From positions 1 to 64,000 of the forward strand of contig NZ_LDQA01000029.1 of NCBI RefSeq assembly GCF_001475935.1: a DNA stretch of 64,000 bases. Direction: 5' to 3'. The DNA is from Aureimonas ureilytica. GTDB taxonomy: Bacteria; Pseudomonadota; Alphaproteobacteria; Rhizobiales; Rhizobiaceae. Shown piece after piece: positions 36,124-43,211 of the stretch. The notes beneath the pieces are model-generated. The model was not told where the DNA came from and searched no databases. It saw only the letters and a program-made list of their open reading frames with translations. Every line of letters starts with the position of its first letter. The stretch's first letter is position 1. The translations under genes and the position numbers were made by a program.

Positions 36124-38004
36124 TCAAGCCCGACCCGCCGCCTTCGCCTTGGCCTCGTCGTACCACCAGAGCCGTTCCACCGGAAACCCGTAATCGGGCT
36201 TGGGATCGCGAAAGCCGAACATGTCCCACCATGCGACCTTATGCCCGGTGGAGCCGATATTGGGCAGCCAGTCCAGGCGCCAGCGCAAGGTCCGGTCCAG
36301 CGCGCGCATGGCGATGGCGAGGCTTTCCCGGTCCTGCGCCTCGCCGACCTTCGCGATCAAGGCGTCCAAGGCCGTGCTCGCCGTGCCCGGATAATTGTAG
36401 GAGCCGTTGCGATCGCGCGCCGCCGAGCCGAAGAAAAGCCCGAGGCTTTCGCGTGTCGGCGTGCCGTTGAGCGAAAAGGCGCAGAGCATCATGTCGAAGT
36501 CGAAACGGTTCTGCCGGTCCTGATATTGCGCGGCGTCCACGAGGCGCAGCGAGGCGTCGATGCCCAGAAGCTTCATGTTCTCGATCATCTTGCCGTAGAT
36601 GCGCGCCTGCTCGGGGTCGTTGATCAGATGTTCGAGCCGGAAGACCGTGCCCTTGGCGTCCACGAGCTGCGAGCCCTTGCGCGTCCAGCCGGCGGCCTGG
36701 AGCAGGTCGGCGGCCTCGCGCAGGAGCTTGCGGTCGCGGCCCGATCCGTCCGAGATTGGCTGGCGCCAGACCTCGCCGAAGACCTCCGGCGGCAGGTCGG
36801 CCCGCAGCGGCTCCAGCAGCGCCAATTCCTCCGGCGGAGGCGCGCCCACGGCCACGAAATCCGAATTCTCGAAGGGCGATTGCGAATGCTCGCGCAGGCC
36901 ATAGAGAAGATTGGCGTTGGTCCATTCGAAGTCGAAGCAGAGATTGATCGCGCGGCGCACGCGCGCATCCTGAAACTGCGCCCGGCGCTGGTTCAGCGCC
37001 CAGCATTGGAAGCGCGGCCATTTTTCTTCCTCGAACTGGCGCATCTGCACGCGTCCGTCGGTCACGGCCGGAAACTGATATTCCGTCGCCCAGGCCTTGG
37101 TCGTGAACTCCTCGCGATAGGTCGTGTCGCCCTTCTTGAAGGCTTCCAGCGCGCTCTGGCGGTCGCGGTAGAACTCGACGCGGATCGTCTGGAAATGGTC
37201 CAGCCCGCGCTGGAAGGGCATATCCTTGGCCCAATGGTCGGCCCGCTTCTCGTATTCGATGAAGCGCCCTGCGATATAGCGGCCGATGCGATAGGCGCCG
37301 GAGCCCGGGATCTCGGTGAAACCGCCCTGCGTGAACGGTCGATCCTGAAAAAAGCTTTCCGGCACGATCGGGATGGAAAGCGCCTGAAGCGCGGTCGGCA
37401 GGGTCTGCCGACCGGAAAAGCGGATCGTCACCCCGCGCTCGCCGTCGGCTGTCACCTCAATGACCTCTGCCAGCTGAATGGCGAGCGCCGGGTGGCCCTC
37501 GCTCTTCATGGTGCGATAGGAAAAGGCGACGTCGGAGGCCAGAACCGGCGCGCCGGTGGAGAAGCGCGCTTGTGGGCGAAGCTCGAAGCGGAATGTGTTG
37601 TTGTCGGGCGAAACGGACACGCTCTCGGCCAGCTGACCATAGATCGCGTCCGGCTCGTCCAGCGTCCCGGTCATCAGCCCTTCATAGAGCATTTCGATGC
37701 GCGGCGGCGCGTTGCCCTGAAGAATGAAGGTGTTGAACGTGTCGAACGTATCGGGCGCCTGATTGAGCACCCAGTTCGGCACGGTGAACGTGAAGCGCCC
37801 GCCCTCTGGCGCGTCGGGGCTCGCGTAGTCGAACTGCTGGTAATCGGCGGGGTATTTCAGATCGCCGAAGGGCGAGAGGCCGTGCAGCTTGGTGTCGTGC
37901 GCGAGCGCCGCGAACCCCAGGCGCGGCAGCGCGGCGACCGCGCCCGCCGCCAAGGCCAGCCTGCCGAAGTCGCGACGCGAGAAGAGGCGGAGAGGCCCGG
38001 TCAT
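36124..38004 (-). CDS. Peptide ABC transporter substrate-binding protein, Tat-exported
   Basis: 626-residue periplasmic binding protein of the SBP_bac_5 (DppA/YejA) family. The N-terminus MTGPLRLFSRRDFGRLALAAG carries a twin-arginine motif (SRRDFGR) with a hydrophobic stretch, so export is probably via Tat. The start at 38004 is chosen because it gives this leader and lies 11 bases after the stop of the first binding protein. Domain hallmarks: DTFDTFNTFILQG, YEGLM and the C-terminal NIGSTGHKVAWWDMFG. Second of two binding proteins in the operon. Confidence 0.9.
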   Translation of the reverse strand: MTGPLRLFSRRDFGRLALAAGAVAALPRLGFAALAHDTKLHGLSPFGDLKYPADYQQFDYASPDAPEGGRFTFTVPNWVLNQAPDTFDTFNTFILQGNAPPRIEMLYEGLMTGTLDEPDAIYGQLAESVSVSPDNNTFRFELRPQARFSTGAPVLASDVAFSYRTMKSEGHPALAIQLAEVIEVTADGERGVTIRFSGRQTLPTALQALSIPIVPESFFQDRPFTQGGFTEIPGSGAYRIGRYIAGRFIEYEKRADHWAKDMPFQRGLDHFQTIRVEFYRDRQSALEAFKKGDTTYREEFTTKAWATEYQFPAVTDGRVQMRQFEEEKWPRFQCWALNQRRAQFQDARVRRAINLCFDFEWTNANLLYGLREHSQSPFENSDFVAVGAPPPEELALLEPLRADLPPEVFGEVWRQPISDGSGRDRKLLREAADLLQAAGWTRKGSQLVDAKGTVFRLEHLINDPEQARIYGKMIENMKLLGIDASLRLVDAAQYQDRQNRFDFDMMLCAFSLNGTPTRESLGLFFGSAARDRNGSYNYPGTASTALDALIAKVGEAQDRESLAIAMRALDRTLRWRLDWLPNIGSTGHKVAWWDMFGFRDPKPDYGFPVERLWWYDEAKAKAAGRA

Positions 38005-38014
38005 GGCGCGCCTC

Positions 38015-40042
38015 TCAAGGCTGCACGGGCGGGATGGCCGGCTTGGCCGCCGGGTCCGGCGCGCCGGCCGCCGCCGCATCGGCCGGCGTGTTCACCGGCA
38101 CCTCGCCCTTTACCCACCAGGAATAGGGGTCGAGCCCGACATAGGCCGGCTGCTTCTCGGGCATTCCGAACTTGTCCCAATAGGACACCCAGATTTCCGG
38201 ATTGTGCCATTGCGGCACGACATAGAAATTCCAGAGAAGAACGCGGTCGAGCGCATGGACGGCGGTCACCAGACTGTCGCGGTCGGGCGCGTAGATCACC
38301 TTCTCGACCAGCGCATCCACCGCCTCGTTGCGGATGCCGGCCGTGTTCTTGCTGCCCGGCTGCGAGGCGGCCGGCGTGGTCCAGAACTCGCGCTGCTCGT
38401 TGCCGGGCGACAGCGACTGCGCCATCACGTCGGTCACAATGTCGAAGTCGAAACTACTGGTCAGCGCCAGATATTGCGAGACGTCCACGATGCGCGTCGA
38501 GGTCTCGATGCCGAGCCGCTTCAGCTGGTTGGCGAACGGGTCGATGACGCGCGAGGAAGAGGGATCGGTCGCCAGGAACTCGATGCGGAACGGCTCGCCC
38601 TTCGCGTTCACCAGCTGCGAGCCCTTGCGGGTCCAGCCGGCGGCGGTCAACAGGTCGAAGGCCTGCTTCAGATAGGTGCGCTCGGCATTGGGCTGCGAAT
38701 AATCGGGCAGGGTGAAGGGCGTGGTGAAGACCTCGGGCGGGATCTTGTCGCGCAGCGGCTCCAGAAGCTTCAGCTCGCCCTCGCTCGGCAGGCCGGATGA
38801 GGCCAGTTCCGTGCCCTGGAAATAGCTCGTCGTGCGCTGGTAGAGGCCATAGAACAGGTTCTTGTTCATGTCCTGAAAGTTGAAGGCCAGCGTCAGCGCG
38901 CGGCGCACGCGCGGATCGGCGAATTTCTCGCGCCTCGTGTTCAAGACATAGCCCTGCATGGGCTGCCCGGTTTCGGAGGCCAGCGCCATCTTTTTCACGC
39001 GGCCATCGTTGAAGGCCGGGAAATTGTAACCCTGCGCCCAGCGACCGGCGCTGTTCTCGACCCGGTAGTCCGAAAAGCCGCCGCGCTTGTAGGCTTCCCA
39101 GCTTGCGCTCTGGTCGCGGAAATAGGTGTAGCGAATTTCGTCGTAATTGTAGCGGCCGATGCGCGCCGGCTTCTGGGCGGCCCAGTAGTTGGGCACCCGC
39201 TCCCAGGTGATGTCCGAGCCCGGCGTGAAGCTCTTGATGCGGTAGGGGCCGGAGCCAACCGGCACTTCCAGCGTCGGCGCGGTGATGTCGCGCTTCTGCC
39301 CGTTCGGCCCCGTGCCTTCCCACCAGTGCTTGGGCAGCACGACGAGATCGCCCATGATGTTGGGCAGTTCGCGATTGCCGGTCTGGTCGAAGCGGAAGGT
39401 GACCTCGCGCTCGCCGGTCTTCTCCGCGCCCGTCACGCTGCGATAATAATTGCCATAGAGCGGCGACAGCGCCTTCACCGTCTCGAAGCTCCAGATCACG
39501 TCCTCGACCGTGATCGGCTGCCCGTCGCTGAACCGGGCGTCGGGGTCCAGTCGGTAGGTGACGGATGAGAAGTCCGAGGGGTAGCGCAGCGCTTCCGCGA
39601 TCAGCGCATGGCTGACGCCCGGTTCGTCGGGCGACTGGTCGAGAAGCGTGTCATAGACGATGCCCCCGCCCAGCACCGCAAAGCCCGCCGCCGGCGTGCC
39701 GCGCACGGGGAACGGGTTGAAGCTGTCGAACGTGCCTGGCGCCGACAGGCGCAGGACGCCGCCCTTCGGCGCGTCGGGGTTCACGTAATCGTAGCGCTGG
39801 AAGGTCTCGCCATATTTCGACGGCCGGATCAGCGAGGACGACGTGTGCCATTCCCCCGCCTCCACCGCCGGAGCGGCGGTCGGGGCGGGCGCCGGTTGCT
39901 GGGCATAGGCCAGCGGGGCGGTGCCGGCGAGAAGCGCCGAGGCGAGAAGGAGGGAAACGGCGCGGGATGCGATCGGCAAAGCGAACTCCAGGCGGGACAG
40001 GCGGAAAAGACGGAGCCCAGACGGCCGGATCAATATGGCCAT
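38015..40042 (-). CDS. Peptide ABC transporter substrate-binding protein, Sec-exported
   Basis: About 675-residue YejA-like binding protein, first gene of the peptide importer operon. A Sec signal peptide ends at PLAYA-QQ. Two starts compete: the ATG at 40042 with no good ribosome site, and a TTG at 39979 with GGAG six bases upstream that would begin PIASRAVSLLLASALL. Domain motifs include GTFDSFNPFPVRGTPAAG, YDTLLDQS and the C-terminal PQWHNPEIWVSYWDKFG. It is paralogous to the next gene (WNFYVVPQWHN versus WRLDWLPNIGST), probably widening the peptide range. Confidence 0.88.
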   Translation of the reverse strand: MAILIRPSGLRLFRLSRLEFALPIASRAVSLLLASALLAGTAPLAYAQQPAPAPTAAPAVEAGEWHTSSSLIRPSKYGETFQRYDYVNPDAPKGGVLRLSAPGTFDSFNPFPVRGTPAAGFAVLGGGIVYDTLLDQSPDEPGVSHALIAEALRYPSDFSSVTYRLDPDARFSDGQPITVEDVIWSFETVKALSPLYGNYYRSVTGAEKTGEREVTFRFDQTGNRELPNIMGDLVVLPKHWWEGTGPNGQKRDITAPTLEVPVGSGPYRIKSFTPGSDITWERVPNYWAAQKPARIGRYNYDEIRYTYFRDQSASWEAYKRGGFSDYRVENSAGRWAQGYNFPAFNDGRVKKMALASETGQPMQGYVLNTRREKFADPRVRRALTLAFNFQDMNKNLFYGLYQRTTSYFQGTELASSGLPSEGELKLLEPLRDKIPPEVFTTPFTLPDYSQPNAERTYLKQAFDLLTAAGWTRKGSQLVNAKGEPFRIEFLATDPSSSRVIDPFANQLKRLGIETSTRIVDVSQYLALTSSFDFDIVTDVMAQSLSPGNEQREFWTTPAASQPGSKNTAGIRNEAVDALVEKVIYAPDRDSLVTAVHALDRVLLWNFYVVPQWHNPEIWVSYWDKFGMPEKQPAYVGLDPYSWWVKGEVPVNTPADAAAAGAPDPAAKPAIPPVQP

Positions 40043-40144
40043 CCTCGGGCGACGGGCGCCGAGATACGAAAGTGTAATGGCCGAGCGGCCGGTGTCCATG
40101 CCCTCGGGCATCACGCTCTCGTCGCAGAGCGGCGCGATCGTCCT

Positions 40145-40189
40145 GAAACGCGAAAGTCTTGAAACGCGAAAAGTGCCGAAACGCAAAAA
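40145..40189. repeat. Three GAAACGCGAAA-like direct repeats
   Basis: GAAACGCGAAA at 40145, again at 40161, and GAAACGCAAAA at 40178, spaced 16-17 bases, lie between the cytochrome gene and the peptide-binding protein gene. The third copy runs into the terminator T-tract. Spacing of about 1.5 helix turns suggests regulator binding to the yej promoter. Confidence 0.5.
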
Positions 40190-40234: not shown

Positions 40235-41092
40235 TTACTGCGCGGGTGCCGGGGCCGGGGCTGCCGGAGCCGCGCCGGGGTTCTGCGCCTCGGCCGGGCT
40301 TGGAGCCTGCGGCGGGGCGGAGGTGGCGTTGTCGCCCGTGGCCGGCACCGCGCCGGAGGGCGGCGCTGTCGGGGCCGCGCCCGTGGTGGCGTCGGTCGTG
40401 CCGCCGCTCTGGGGCTGCGTCACCGGGTCGTTGCCGCCGGGGCTGCTGTTGGTGGTCGTGGCCGGGTTGGTCGGGGCGGGAGCGTTGGCATCGCCCGCAC
40501 CGGCTGCGGGCGCGGCCGCTTCGCTCGCGCCGGCATCGGGCGCGGGCGGCGGAACCGGCGTGTCGGCCAGCGTGCCGAGATAGGCCAGGAGATCGGCGCG
40601 TTCCTGGTCCTTGGGCAGGCCGGCAAAGCCCATGGCGGTGCCGGGAATGTACTGCTTGGGGCCGTGCAGGAAGTGGTTCAGGTGATCCCAGTCCCAGAGG
40701 ACGGTCTTGCCCTTGGAGAACTCGGTCATGGCGGCCGAGTAGGAGAAGCCCTCATGCGAGGCCATCGGGCGGTTCACGATGCCCCAGAGATCGGGGCCGA
40801 CCTTGTTCGGGCCGCCCTTCTCGCCGGAATGGCAGGCCTGGCAGCGCTTGAAGATGGCCGCGCCGGCCTGCGCATTGGCGGTCTGCATGAGCTTGCCGAC
40901 CGGCGTCACCTCGGCTGCGGCCGGGGCCGCGGAGGCCGCGCCCGCGGCCGGCTCGGCGGCGGTGATCGCAAAGCCCGGCTTTTCCGGCACTTCGGAATGG
41001 AAAATGGCTTCGGCCAGAAGGCTGCCGCCGAACAGAACGAAGACGGTGCCCAGAACGGCGCCGAAAATCTTGTTGGCCTCGAAAGAATCCAT
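40235..41092 (-). CDS. cycM: Membrane-anchored cytochrome c (CycM-like)
   Basis: 285-residue c-type cytochrome carrying electrons in the respiratory chain. One N-terminal uncleaved helix (about residues 9-28), a linker rich in Ala, then haem site CQACH (Cys84, Cys87, His88) and distal Met in YIPGTAMGF. The domain is followed by a 100-residue Pro/Ala/Thr-rich tail (about 180-285), not part of the fold and probably spacer or cell-envelope anchor. The ATG at 41092 begins MDSFEANK, the usual CycM start. Divergent from kdsB-pheA. Confidence 0.9.
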
Positions 41093-41480
41093 GTGGCTGG
41101 GCGGCTCCCTCTCCAACCGGCCCGGCGACCGGCGAACGCTGCTGACACGAAGTCATGATACCAGGGCCGTCCGCTCGTTCGGTGCGGAAGGCCCCGGGCC
41201 GTCGAATGCTCGGCGTCTCAAGGGGAAAAGGACAAGTCCCTTCCTCCGCAAGCGCCTTGGGGCCTTTTGCCGGATAGCGGCACCCCCTATAAGCCCCCTC
41301 GGCGTGTCTTTCGAAATGCGAGCGGCGACCTTTCGGCCCGCGCCTTTCGAAAGACACGCAAAGTCTGGAAGCGTTCTGACATTCCCCCCGGAATGGATCA
41401 AGCGCCCACCTGTCACAGCTCCGCGTTATCTCGCGCATTCCGGGCGGGATTTCGTGCGATTGGCCCCGAAAGTTGCGTCC
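41093..41480. other. Divergent intergenic region with a long inverted repeat
   Basis: 388 bases between cycM and kdsB-pheA. No credible gene: the minus frame 41153-41416 has shadow composition. It holds the inverted repeat at 41303-41358 and a CTATAAG -10-like sequence around 41287, and must contain both promoters. Confidence 0.5.
41303..41358. repeat. Perfect 14-base inverted repeat before kdsB-pheA
   Basis: CGTGTCTTTCGAAA (41303-41316) and its exact complement TTTCGAAAGACACG (41345-41358) are separated by 28 bases, about 120 bases ahead of the start codon. CTATAAG a few bases upstream could be its promoter -10, which would place the repeat in the leader RNA as a stem. Each arm also contains TTTCGAAA, itself a palindrome, so it could instead be a double operator. 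Confidence 0.7.
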
Positions 41481-43082
41481 ATGTCCACACTCGTCCTCAT
41501 TCCCGCGCGTCTCGCCTCGACCCGCCTGCCCAACAAGCCGTTGGCCGACATTGCCGGCGCGCCGATGATCGTGCGCGTGGCCGAGCGCGCGCGCGACGCC
41601 GCCATCGGCCGTGTGGTGGTCGCCACCGATAGCGACGAGGTGCTGCGCGCGGTGCGCGATGCCGGCTTCGAGGCGGTGATGACGCGGGCTGACCATCCGT
41701 CGGGCTCAGACCGCATCTTCGAGGCGCTGCAGGCCGTCGATCCCGAGGGCCAGGTGGATGTGATCGTCAATCTGCAGGGCGATCTGCCGACCATCGAGCC
41801 GGAGACGGTGCGCGCCGTTCTCAAACCCTTCGCCGACCCGGACTGCGATATCGCGACCGTCGTGGTCGAGATCGGCAACGAGGCCGACGCCAAGGACCCG
41901 AACGTCGTGAAGCTGATCGGCACGCCGAACGGCGAGCGCCGGCTGAACGCGCTCTATTTCACCCGTGCCACCGCGCCGACGGGCGACGGGCCGCTGTTCC
42001 ACCATGTCGGCATCTATGCCTATCGCCGCGCCGCGCTGGAGCGCTTCGTCACGCTGAAGCCCTCGCCGCTGGAGGTGCGCGAGCGGCTGGAGCAGCTGCG
42101 CGCGCTGGAAGCGGGCATGCGGATCGACGCCGAGATCGTCGATGCCGTGCCGCTCGGCGTCGACACGGCCTATCAGCTGGAGGAAGCGCGCCGTGCCTTC
42201 CTGCCGCCGGCCCGCACCGGGCGCATCGCCTTCCAGGGCGAACGCGGGGCCAATTCCGACATGGCCTGCCAGGCCATGTATCCTGATCTGGAGCCGCTGC
42301 CCTGTCCGAGCTTCGAGGACGCGTTTGCCGCCGTCCAGAACGGTACGGCCGATCTCGCCATGATCCCGATCGAGAACACGCTGGCGGGGCGCGTCGCCGA
42401 CGTTCATCACCTTCTGCCCTCGTCGGGCTTGCAGATCGTCGGCGAGTTCTTCCTGCCGATCCGCTTCCAGCTCATGGTGAAGCCGGGCATGACGCTGGCC
42501 GACATCAAGGAAGTGCACAGCCATGTCCACGCGCTCGGCCAGTGCCGGGGCATCATCCGGCGCAATGGTTGGAAGCCGGTCGTGGCGGGCGATACGGCGG
42601 GCGCGGCGCGCATCGTCTCGGAAATGGAAGAGCGCCATGTGGCGGCCCTCGCACCGCGCTTGGCCGCCGATCTCTACGGGCTCGATATTCTGGCCGAGAA
42701 TGTCGAAGACGCCGAGCACAACGCGACGCGCTTCGTCGTTCTGACGCGAAAAGAGGCAGGCCGGGCGCTTTGGGCAAAGAATGACAACCGCGTGGTCACC
42801 ACTTTCGTCTTCGAAGTGCGCAATGTCGCGGCAGCGCTCTATAAGGCGCTGGGTGGCTTTGCCACAAATGGCGTCAACATGACCAAGCTCGAAAGCTACC
42901 AGCTGGAGGGCAAGTTCGTGGCGACGCAGTTCTATGCCGATATCGAGGGGCACCCGGACGATGTGGGCGTCGCCCATGCGCTGGAGGAGCTGGAATTCTT
43001 CTCCAAGCGGCTGGCCATTCTCGGCGTCTATTCGGCCGCGCCCAACCGGCCCGAACTGCCCGCGCCCGCCATCGGCGAATGA
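41481..43082 (+). CDS. kdsB-pheA: Fused KdsB-PheA: KDO cytidylyltransferase plus prephenate dehydratase
   Basis: One continuous 533-residue frame. Residues 1-240 are complete CMP-KDO synthetase ([57 protein letters not shown]), which activates KDO for lipopolysaccharide. From residue 247 ([14 protein letters not shown]) follows complete prephenate dehydratase with NATRF, then an ACT domain with LESYQLEG for phenylalanine binding, ending near 525. The linker is about six residues and contains no ATG, GTG or TTG in frame. In related genomes the two are adjacent separate genes. Fusion is the direct reading; loss of a stop or a sequencing error must be excluded. Confidence 0.9.
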
Positions 43083-43144
43083 GGGGCTGAGGGGAGGGCG
43101 GCTTCGGTCGCCCACTTCTCGTTCGAACCCAGAGCCCCAACAGC

Positions 43145-43171
43145 AAAAAGCCCCGCTTGGCGGGGCTTTTT
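43145..43171. terminator. Strong bidirectional terminator
   Basis: AAAAAGCCCCGC-TTG-GCGGGGCTTTTT: a perfect 12-base stem with flanking A and T tracts, about 60 bases after kdsB-pheA and 40 bases beyond the stop of the convergent DUF1127 gene. It serves both. Confidence 0.93.
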
Positions 43172-43211
43172 CGTCGGCCGGGTCGAGGTGCCCGGCAGGT
43201 TCTTTCGGCGC

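Follow-up and report, generated by a model that had tools for sequence, protein, structure and literature searches.

The fused reading frame

The window, a 64,000-nt stretch of Aureimonas ureilytica contig NZ_LDQA01000029.1, contains an open reading frame in which CMP-Kdo synthetase (KdsB) is joined to prephenate dehydratase (PheA). The features at and around this frame are as follows:

40235..41116, minus strand: c-type cytochrome gene (PF00034, 38.9 bits), the divergent upstream neighbor, outside the fusion
41481..43082, plus strand: kdsB-pheA fused gene, 533 aa (open frame; NCBIfam, Pfam)
41481..42200, plus strand: KdsB module (CMP-Kdo synthetase), residues 1-240 (PRK05450.1-1; 3k8d, 1vh1 and 8ees by sequence; Foldseek)
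42201..42221, plus strand: junction, residues 241-247 (LPPARTG), leading from the last KdsB helix to the first PheA strand
42213..43079, plus strand: PheA module (prephenate dehydratase plus ACT region), residues 245-533 (PRK11899.1, PF00800, 6vh5)
43143..43174, plus strand: hairpin with a T-run, a possible intrinsic terminator (RNA fold)

The frame opens with ATG at 41481, closes with TGA at 43080-43082, and runs through 533 codons with zero internal stops. Its first part is matched by the NCBIfam KdsB equivalog PRK05450.1-1 at 395.2 bits, against a cut-off of 281 (residues 1-239 on model positions 4-242 of 248), and its second part by the NCBIfam PheA equivalog PRK11899.1 at 463.7 bits, against a cut-off of 359 (residues 246-524 on model positions 5-280 of 283). 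Pfam recognizes CTP_transf_3 (PF02348) and PDT (PF00800, residues 249-425) on the fused protein; the Pfam ACT model was unmatched at E <= 0.001, and 6vh5, a prephenate dehydratase solved with ACT and Phe, aligns through residue 521. The first-pass annotation of this DNA had described a single 533-codon frame containing complete KdsB and complete prephenate dehydratase plus ACT domain, joined by a junction free of start codons, and both points were confirmed: ATG, GTG and TTG are all absent in frame between D228 of the GVD motif and R248 in the first PheA strand.

In the window's genome, PF00800 has a single match and PF02348 has four, the one described here at 162 bits and the other three at 24-29 bits, while the whole fused protein used as a query yielded one match at E <= 0.001. 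The hairpin listed above lies about 60 nt past the stop of the fused gene, and segment 43138-43180 folds at -20.5 kcal/mol (z -2.78, equaled by 4/200 shuffles). A terminator scan returned two terminator-like sites, with no excess over shuffles, and the hairpin at 43143-43174, which was spotted by eye, was not among them; a promoter scan returned 0 promoters. Two adjoining genes for family 5 extracellular solute-binding proteins occupy 36124-40186 on the minus strand.

Distribution in Aureimonas and related bacteria

We searched genomes sampled across the phylum, plus a plasmid collection, for full-length homologs with the same two-domain architecture. The fusion was present, as one continuous match with an open junction, in 21/21 Aureimonas species genomes examined, three of which (G003, G005 and G007) are one-contig assemblies, with protein identity to the window's copy going down to 69%. 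Its presence in every genome of the genus examined means that it is not a sequencing error and is more than chance; the open junction, the one-contig assemblies and the range of divergence refute an assembly or sequencing artefact, to which we would give practically no credence. A “stop inside” flag on G018 and G007 proved to be the terminal stop of the gene itself. Named records provided 80 loci, of which nine from Aureimonas are fused, with proteins identical to nine of those from the genus genomes, and 71 not titled Aureimonas are all separate. Altogether, the 32 fused loci represent 21 distinct sequences.

Outside Aureimonas, among the matches listed, none of the 108 in-frame kdsB-pheA pairs (L025/G021 and L028/G053 included) was fused when read at the DNA level, bearing out the earlier statement that the two genes are adjacent yet separate in related bacteria. 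These readings draw on 61 genomes of relatives (21 of the genus), a family sample of 394 genomes (8 of the genus; matches at E <= 1e-138), a class sample of 385 genomes including the window's own (matches at E <= 1e-125), and a phylum sample of 398 genomes, again including the window's own, in which only the matches listed were considered. It should be kept in mind that at the family and class cut-offs any fusions with a long extra linker would be missed. Two entries of the family sample, G394 (match from residue 182) and G197 (PheA only), whose matches do not cover both halves, were left out of the DNA-level reading.

Candidates for independent fusions elsewhere, such as those in G033, G048, G1141 and G1045, where kdsB and pheA were assigned frames of equal long length, were rejected, as 0/20 turned out to be fused: in 14 of these long-frame candidates or neighbors kdsB and pheA lie side by side but are separated by a stop or are in different frames, and in six the stretch read contains no KdsB match. 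The best six records in the plasmid collection come from Sinorhizobium (four), Shinella (one) and Methylobacterium (one), and the S. meliloti site is annotated as two genes.

Two further observations concern individual records. Besides its fusion, G015 contains a second KdsB-like match (L116, C2:627633-628415; 56% identity) at a locus from which PheA is absent. Two kdsB-pheA loci near those of Hyphomicrobiales occur under the titles Bacillus subtilis SK6B4 (L077, JAHREI010000001.1) and Arenimonas MAG (L104, JAIBEK010000069.1), and it looks as if these records carry wrong titles or represent mixed assemblies.

Junction and origin of the fusion

In relatives whose two genes are separate, the kdsB frame closes a few codons past the motif GVDxxxxLxxAR, and pheA mostly starts close downstream. 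The distance between D of GVD and R of RIxFQG is 60 nt in 31/32 fused loci and 63 nt in one, as opposed to 71-168 nt in 94 of the 95 separate loci measured and 632 nt in the remaining one, 8/103 separate loci having been dropped from the count as they do not contain the RIxFQG anchor. At the protein level, the segment corresponding to residues 238-247 is 10 residues long in 20/21 fused proteins and 11 in one, and P242 is conserved in 19/21. The shortest separate junctions, of 71 nt, were found in Martelella (L107 and L115), where a pheA start and the stop of kdsB overlap or come close to overlapping.

Since the fused junction is shorter than every separate one measured, an in-frame deletion across the kdsB/pheA boundary fits these lengths better than loss of a stop codon alone. 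Thus, the earlier proposal that loss of the kdsB stop created the fusion holds insofar as two neighbors were joined into one chain, but stop loss alone does not account for the missing spacer and pheA start. The adjacent genes would have been joined once, in an Aureimonas ancestor, by an in-frame change that removed the last kdsB codons, the kdsB stop, the spacer and the pheA start.

Trees were built from 117 of the 135 loci with both halves, which were distinct and long enough. In the concatenated tree the 21 fused sequences form one clade (support 0.979), and the fused clade is also recovered with KdsB alone (support 0.955). With PheA alone (FastTree), they are not one clade, as G009 and G020 fall apart from the rest on a long branch (1.56). 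However, an AU test on PheA, for which 55 of these loci were used, left a single fused clade unrejected (p 0.563), with the constrained likelihood 4.02 above that of the free search. A single origin of the fusion is favored, and appears to be the best reading of the trees.

The PheA half of G009 (L026) and G020 (L027) bears a 7-residue insertion, and its median identity to other fused PheA sequences is 63-64% (maximum 67%), compared with ~65% to the best separate ones, while the KdsB half of the same two genomes has a median identity of 72%, and up to 76%, to other fused KdsB. Replacement of PheA in these genomes is disfavored: none of the 347 genomes of the order offered a close donor (the best scored 371 bits, and the window's own 369), and the AU test leaves one clade unrejected. 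Fast divergence is the simpler reading.

One polypeptide or two

A joined frame could still yield two proteins, either because translation also starts within the 3′ portion of kdsB or because the linker is cleaved by a protease. Between D228 and R248, 12/21 fused sequences have no in-frame start, and the other nine have starts at scattered positions, none with an SD-like motif; lack of such a motif is weak evidence, however, because only 17/97 separate pheA genes have one at the candidate start. Further upstream, an ATG located 15 codons before D228 is present in 17/21 fused sequences (9 with a loose SD-like motif), and a GTG located 5 codons before D228 is present in 18/21 (4 with an SD-like motif), so that a shorter PheA could in principle start at either. 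Yet among 98 separate kdsB genes that ATG is found in 96 and that GTG in 40, and the amino acid sequence of KdsB itself can thus account for their presence. No internal-start signal peculiar to fused genes was detected, and the stretch from D228 to R248 contains no conserved start. As for proteolysis, the linker is short, and its confidence in the structure model described below is not low (mean pLDDT 83 for residues 241-250). Production of two separate proteins is unlikely in our estimation, and a single chain is the most likely product, judging from the sequence comparisons.

Functionality of the two halves

Aspartates D101 and D228 of the KdsB motifs QGD and GVD, which we take to bind metal, are identical in 21/21 fused sequences, as are T416, R417 and F418 of the PheA TRF motif, presumably catalytic in prephenate dehydratase. 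Nei-Gojobori dN/dS values for 11 close pairs are 0.063-0.269 for KdsB and 0.027-0.155 for PheA, indicating that both halves are under purifying selection. Apart from the long branch of PheA in G009 and G020, we found nothing in support of one half being a non-functional passenger: selection is purifying on both halves in that pair as well (dN/dS 0.114 for KdsB and 0.095 for PheA), and the window's genome contains no other strong copy of either half. We therefore rate a passenger as very improbable. Preservation of the motifs, purifying selection and the absence of a strong duplicate from the window's genome argue for one chain doing both jobs, and the fused chain most likely performs both enzyme activities. 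The first-pass view of a bifunctional protein made from two neighbors is accordingly supported on the same grounds as probable.

Structure models and possible coupling of the two halves

An AlphaFold model based on 42 aligned sequences has a pLDDT of 86.7 and a pTM of 0.67; another model, built solely from fused sequences (pLDDT 81.2, pTM 0.66), gave a domain arrangement that is no sharper, and at these pTM values no firm arrangement emerges. The last KdsB helix spans residues 230-239, and the first PheA strand spans residues 248-252. Foldseek matched the KdsB half to 3k8d (E. coli KdsB, TMt 0.86) and 1gqc (TMt 0.90), and the PheA half to 6vh5, the Brucella PDT solved with Phe, at 70% identity. 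For residues 249-523 of the PheA half, the next PDB match after the Brucella PDT is GqqA (7alz and 7am0), titled as a novel quorum-quenching acylase type.

It had also been suggested that the fusion couples LPS and aromatic supply, or places KdsB under Phe-dependent ACT control. Such coupling, in which Phe bound at the ACT region or joint oligomer assembly would alter KdsB activity, is not without points in its favor. The junction is of near-constant length (20/21), and Q232 next to it is present in 21/21 fused sequences, as opposed to D at this position in 90/96 separate ones. The PDT-ACT hinge, measured from TRF to the VRN-like motif and counted by loci rather than by distinct sequences, is in most cases longer by two residues in fused loci (28 residues in 23/32, range 27-34) than in separate ones (26 residues in 85/103). 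Moreover, the Brucella PDT, 70% identical, was solved with Phe. Constant junction length, Q232 and the longer hinge would be compatible with the union having a structural role. Nevertheless, Q232, hinge length and similar features of the fused clade may be plain lineage marks as well as adaptations to the fusion. There is also a LW pair inserted at 430-431 in fused sequences, although its placement is unsure since the surrounding stretch is gappy.

The ACT region itself argues against coupling. A451 A452 L453 Y454 and E471 S472 Y473 Q474 are identical in 21/21 fused sequences, and in a 42-row alignment that includes 21 separate pairs positions 451, 453, 454 and 471-473 are invariant and 452 and 474 are nearly so; the motif residues being the same in fused and separate proteins, there is no visible change of Phe sensing with the fusion. 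The models provide no firm arrangement of the domains. The CMP-Kdo synthetase and prephenate dehydratase reactions have no common intermediate, and a catalytic hand-off is thus not expected. The suggested coupling is therefore unsupported, and we consider it rather improbable; a scenario in which the ACT response to Phe would adjust Kdo activation as well, making outer-membrane synthesis in Aureimonas track aromatic amino-acid supply, is in our opinion equally doubtful.

Comparison with known systems

The KdsB half resembles known KdsB (PRK05450.1-1; 3k8d, 1gqc) in its near-full-length match, fold and motif residues, but KdsB elsewhere ends where here its C-terminus continues into PheA. The PheA half likewise resembles the monofunctional PDT-ACT of Hyphomicrobiales (PRK11899.1; 6vh5 from Brucella, 70% identity), including the ACT residues shared with separate relatives; those proteins, however, have their own start, which is absent here, the N-terminus being joined to KdsB. 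The P-protein (chorismate mutase/prephenate dehydratase, PRK10622.1) also has another enzyme at the N-terminus of PheA, but its partner belongs to the same pathway as PheA, in which it acts one step earlier. In the fused protein the chorismate mutase domain is absent, with KdsB, an LPS enzyme, in its place, and PRK10622.1 yields 146.8 bits, against a cut-off of 577, with a match only from model position 102.

Fusion of PheA with chorismate mutase is common among bacteria, according to the parts of PMC11237513 consulted. A KdsB-PheA fusion is not described in the portions seen of that paper and of PMC2912261, and we found no description of it in the literature searched, from which most subscription journals were absent; as far as searched, KdsB is an undescribed fusion partner of PheA. 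That neighboring genes fuse is in itself known, and what is new here is the combination of two pathways, kept across the genus.

Proposed model and implications

The explanation that we consider probable is one ancestral in-frame joining of the two genes, resulting in a 533-residue chain with two independently folding, active enzymes, with Phe control within the PheA half. The CMP-Kdo synthetase half would activate Kdo for the LPS core, and the prephenate dehydratase half would make phenylpyruvate for phenylalanine, probably subject to Phe inhibition through the ACT region; such control would probably be confined to the PheA half. The main consequence of the fusion would be obligatory 1:1 production and tethering of the two enzymes. 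Most likely, we are dealing with lineage-specific tethering of two neighbors, and not with a new regulatory system.

For annotation, a practice of one name per protein would presumably hide one of the two functions. For the genus, the fusion provides a clean natural case of enzymes from unrelated pathways held in one chain, genus-wide in the genomes examined and through wide divergence, and it can be used to ask whether fusions of neighboring genes are neutral tethering or a source of regulation.
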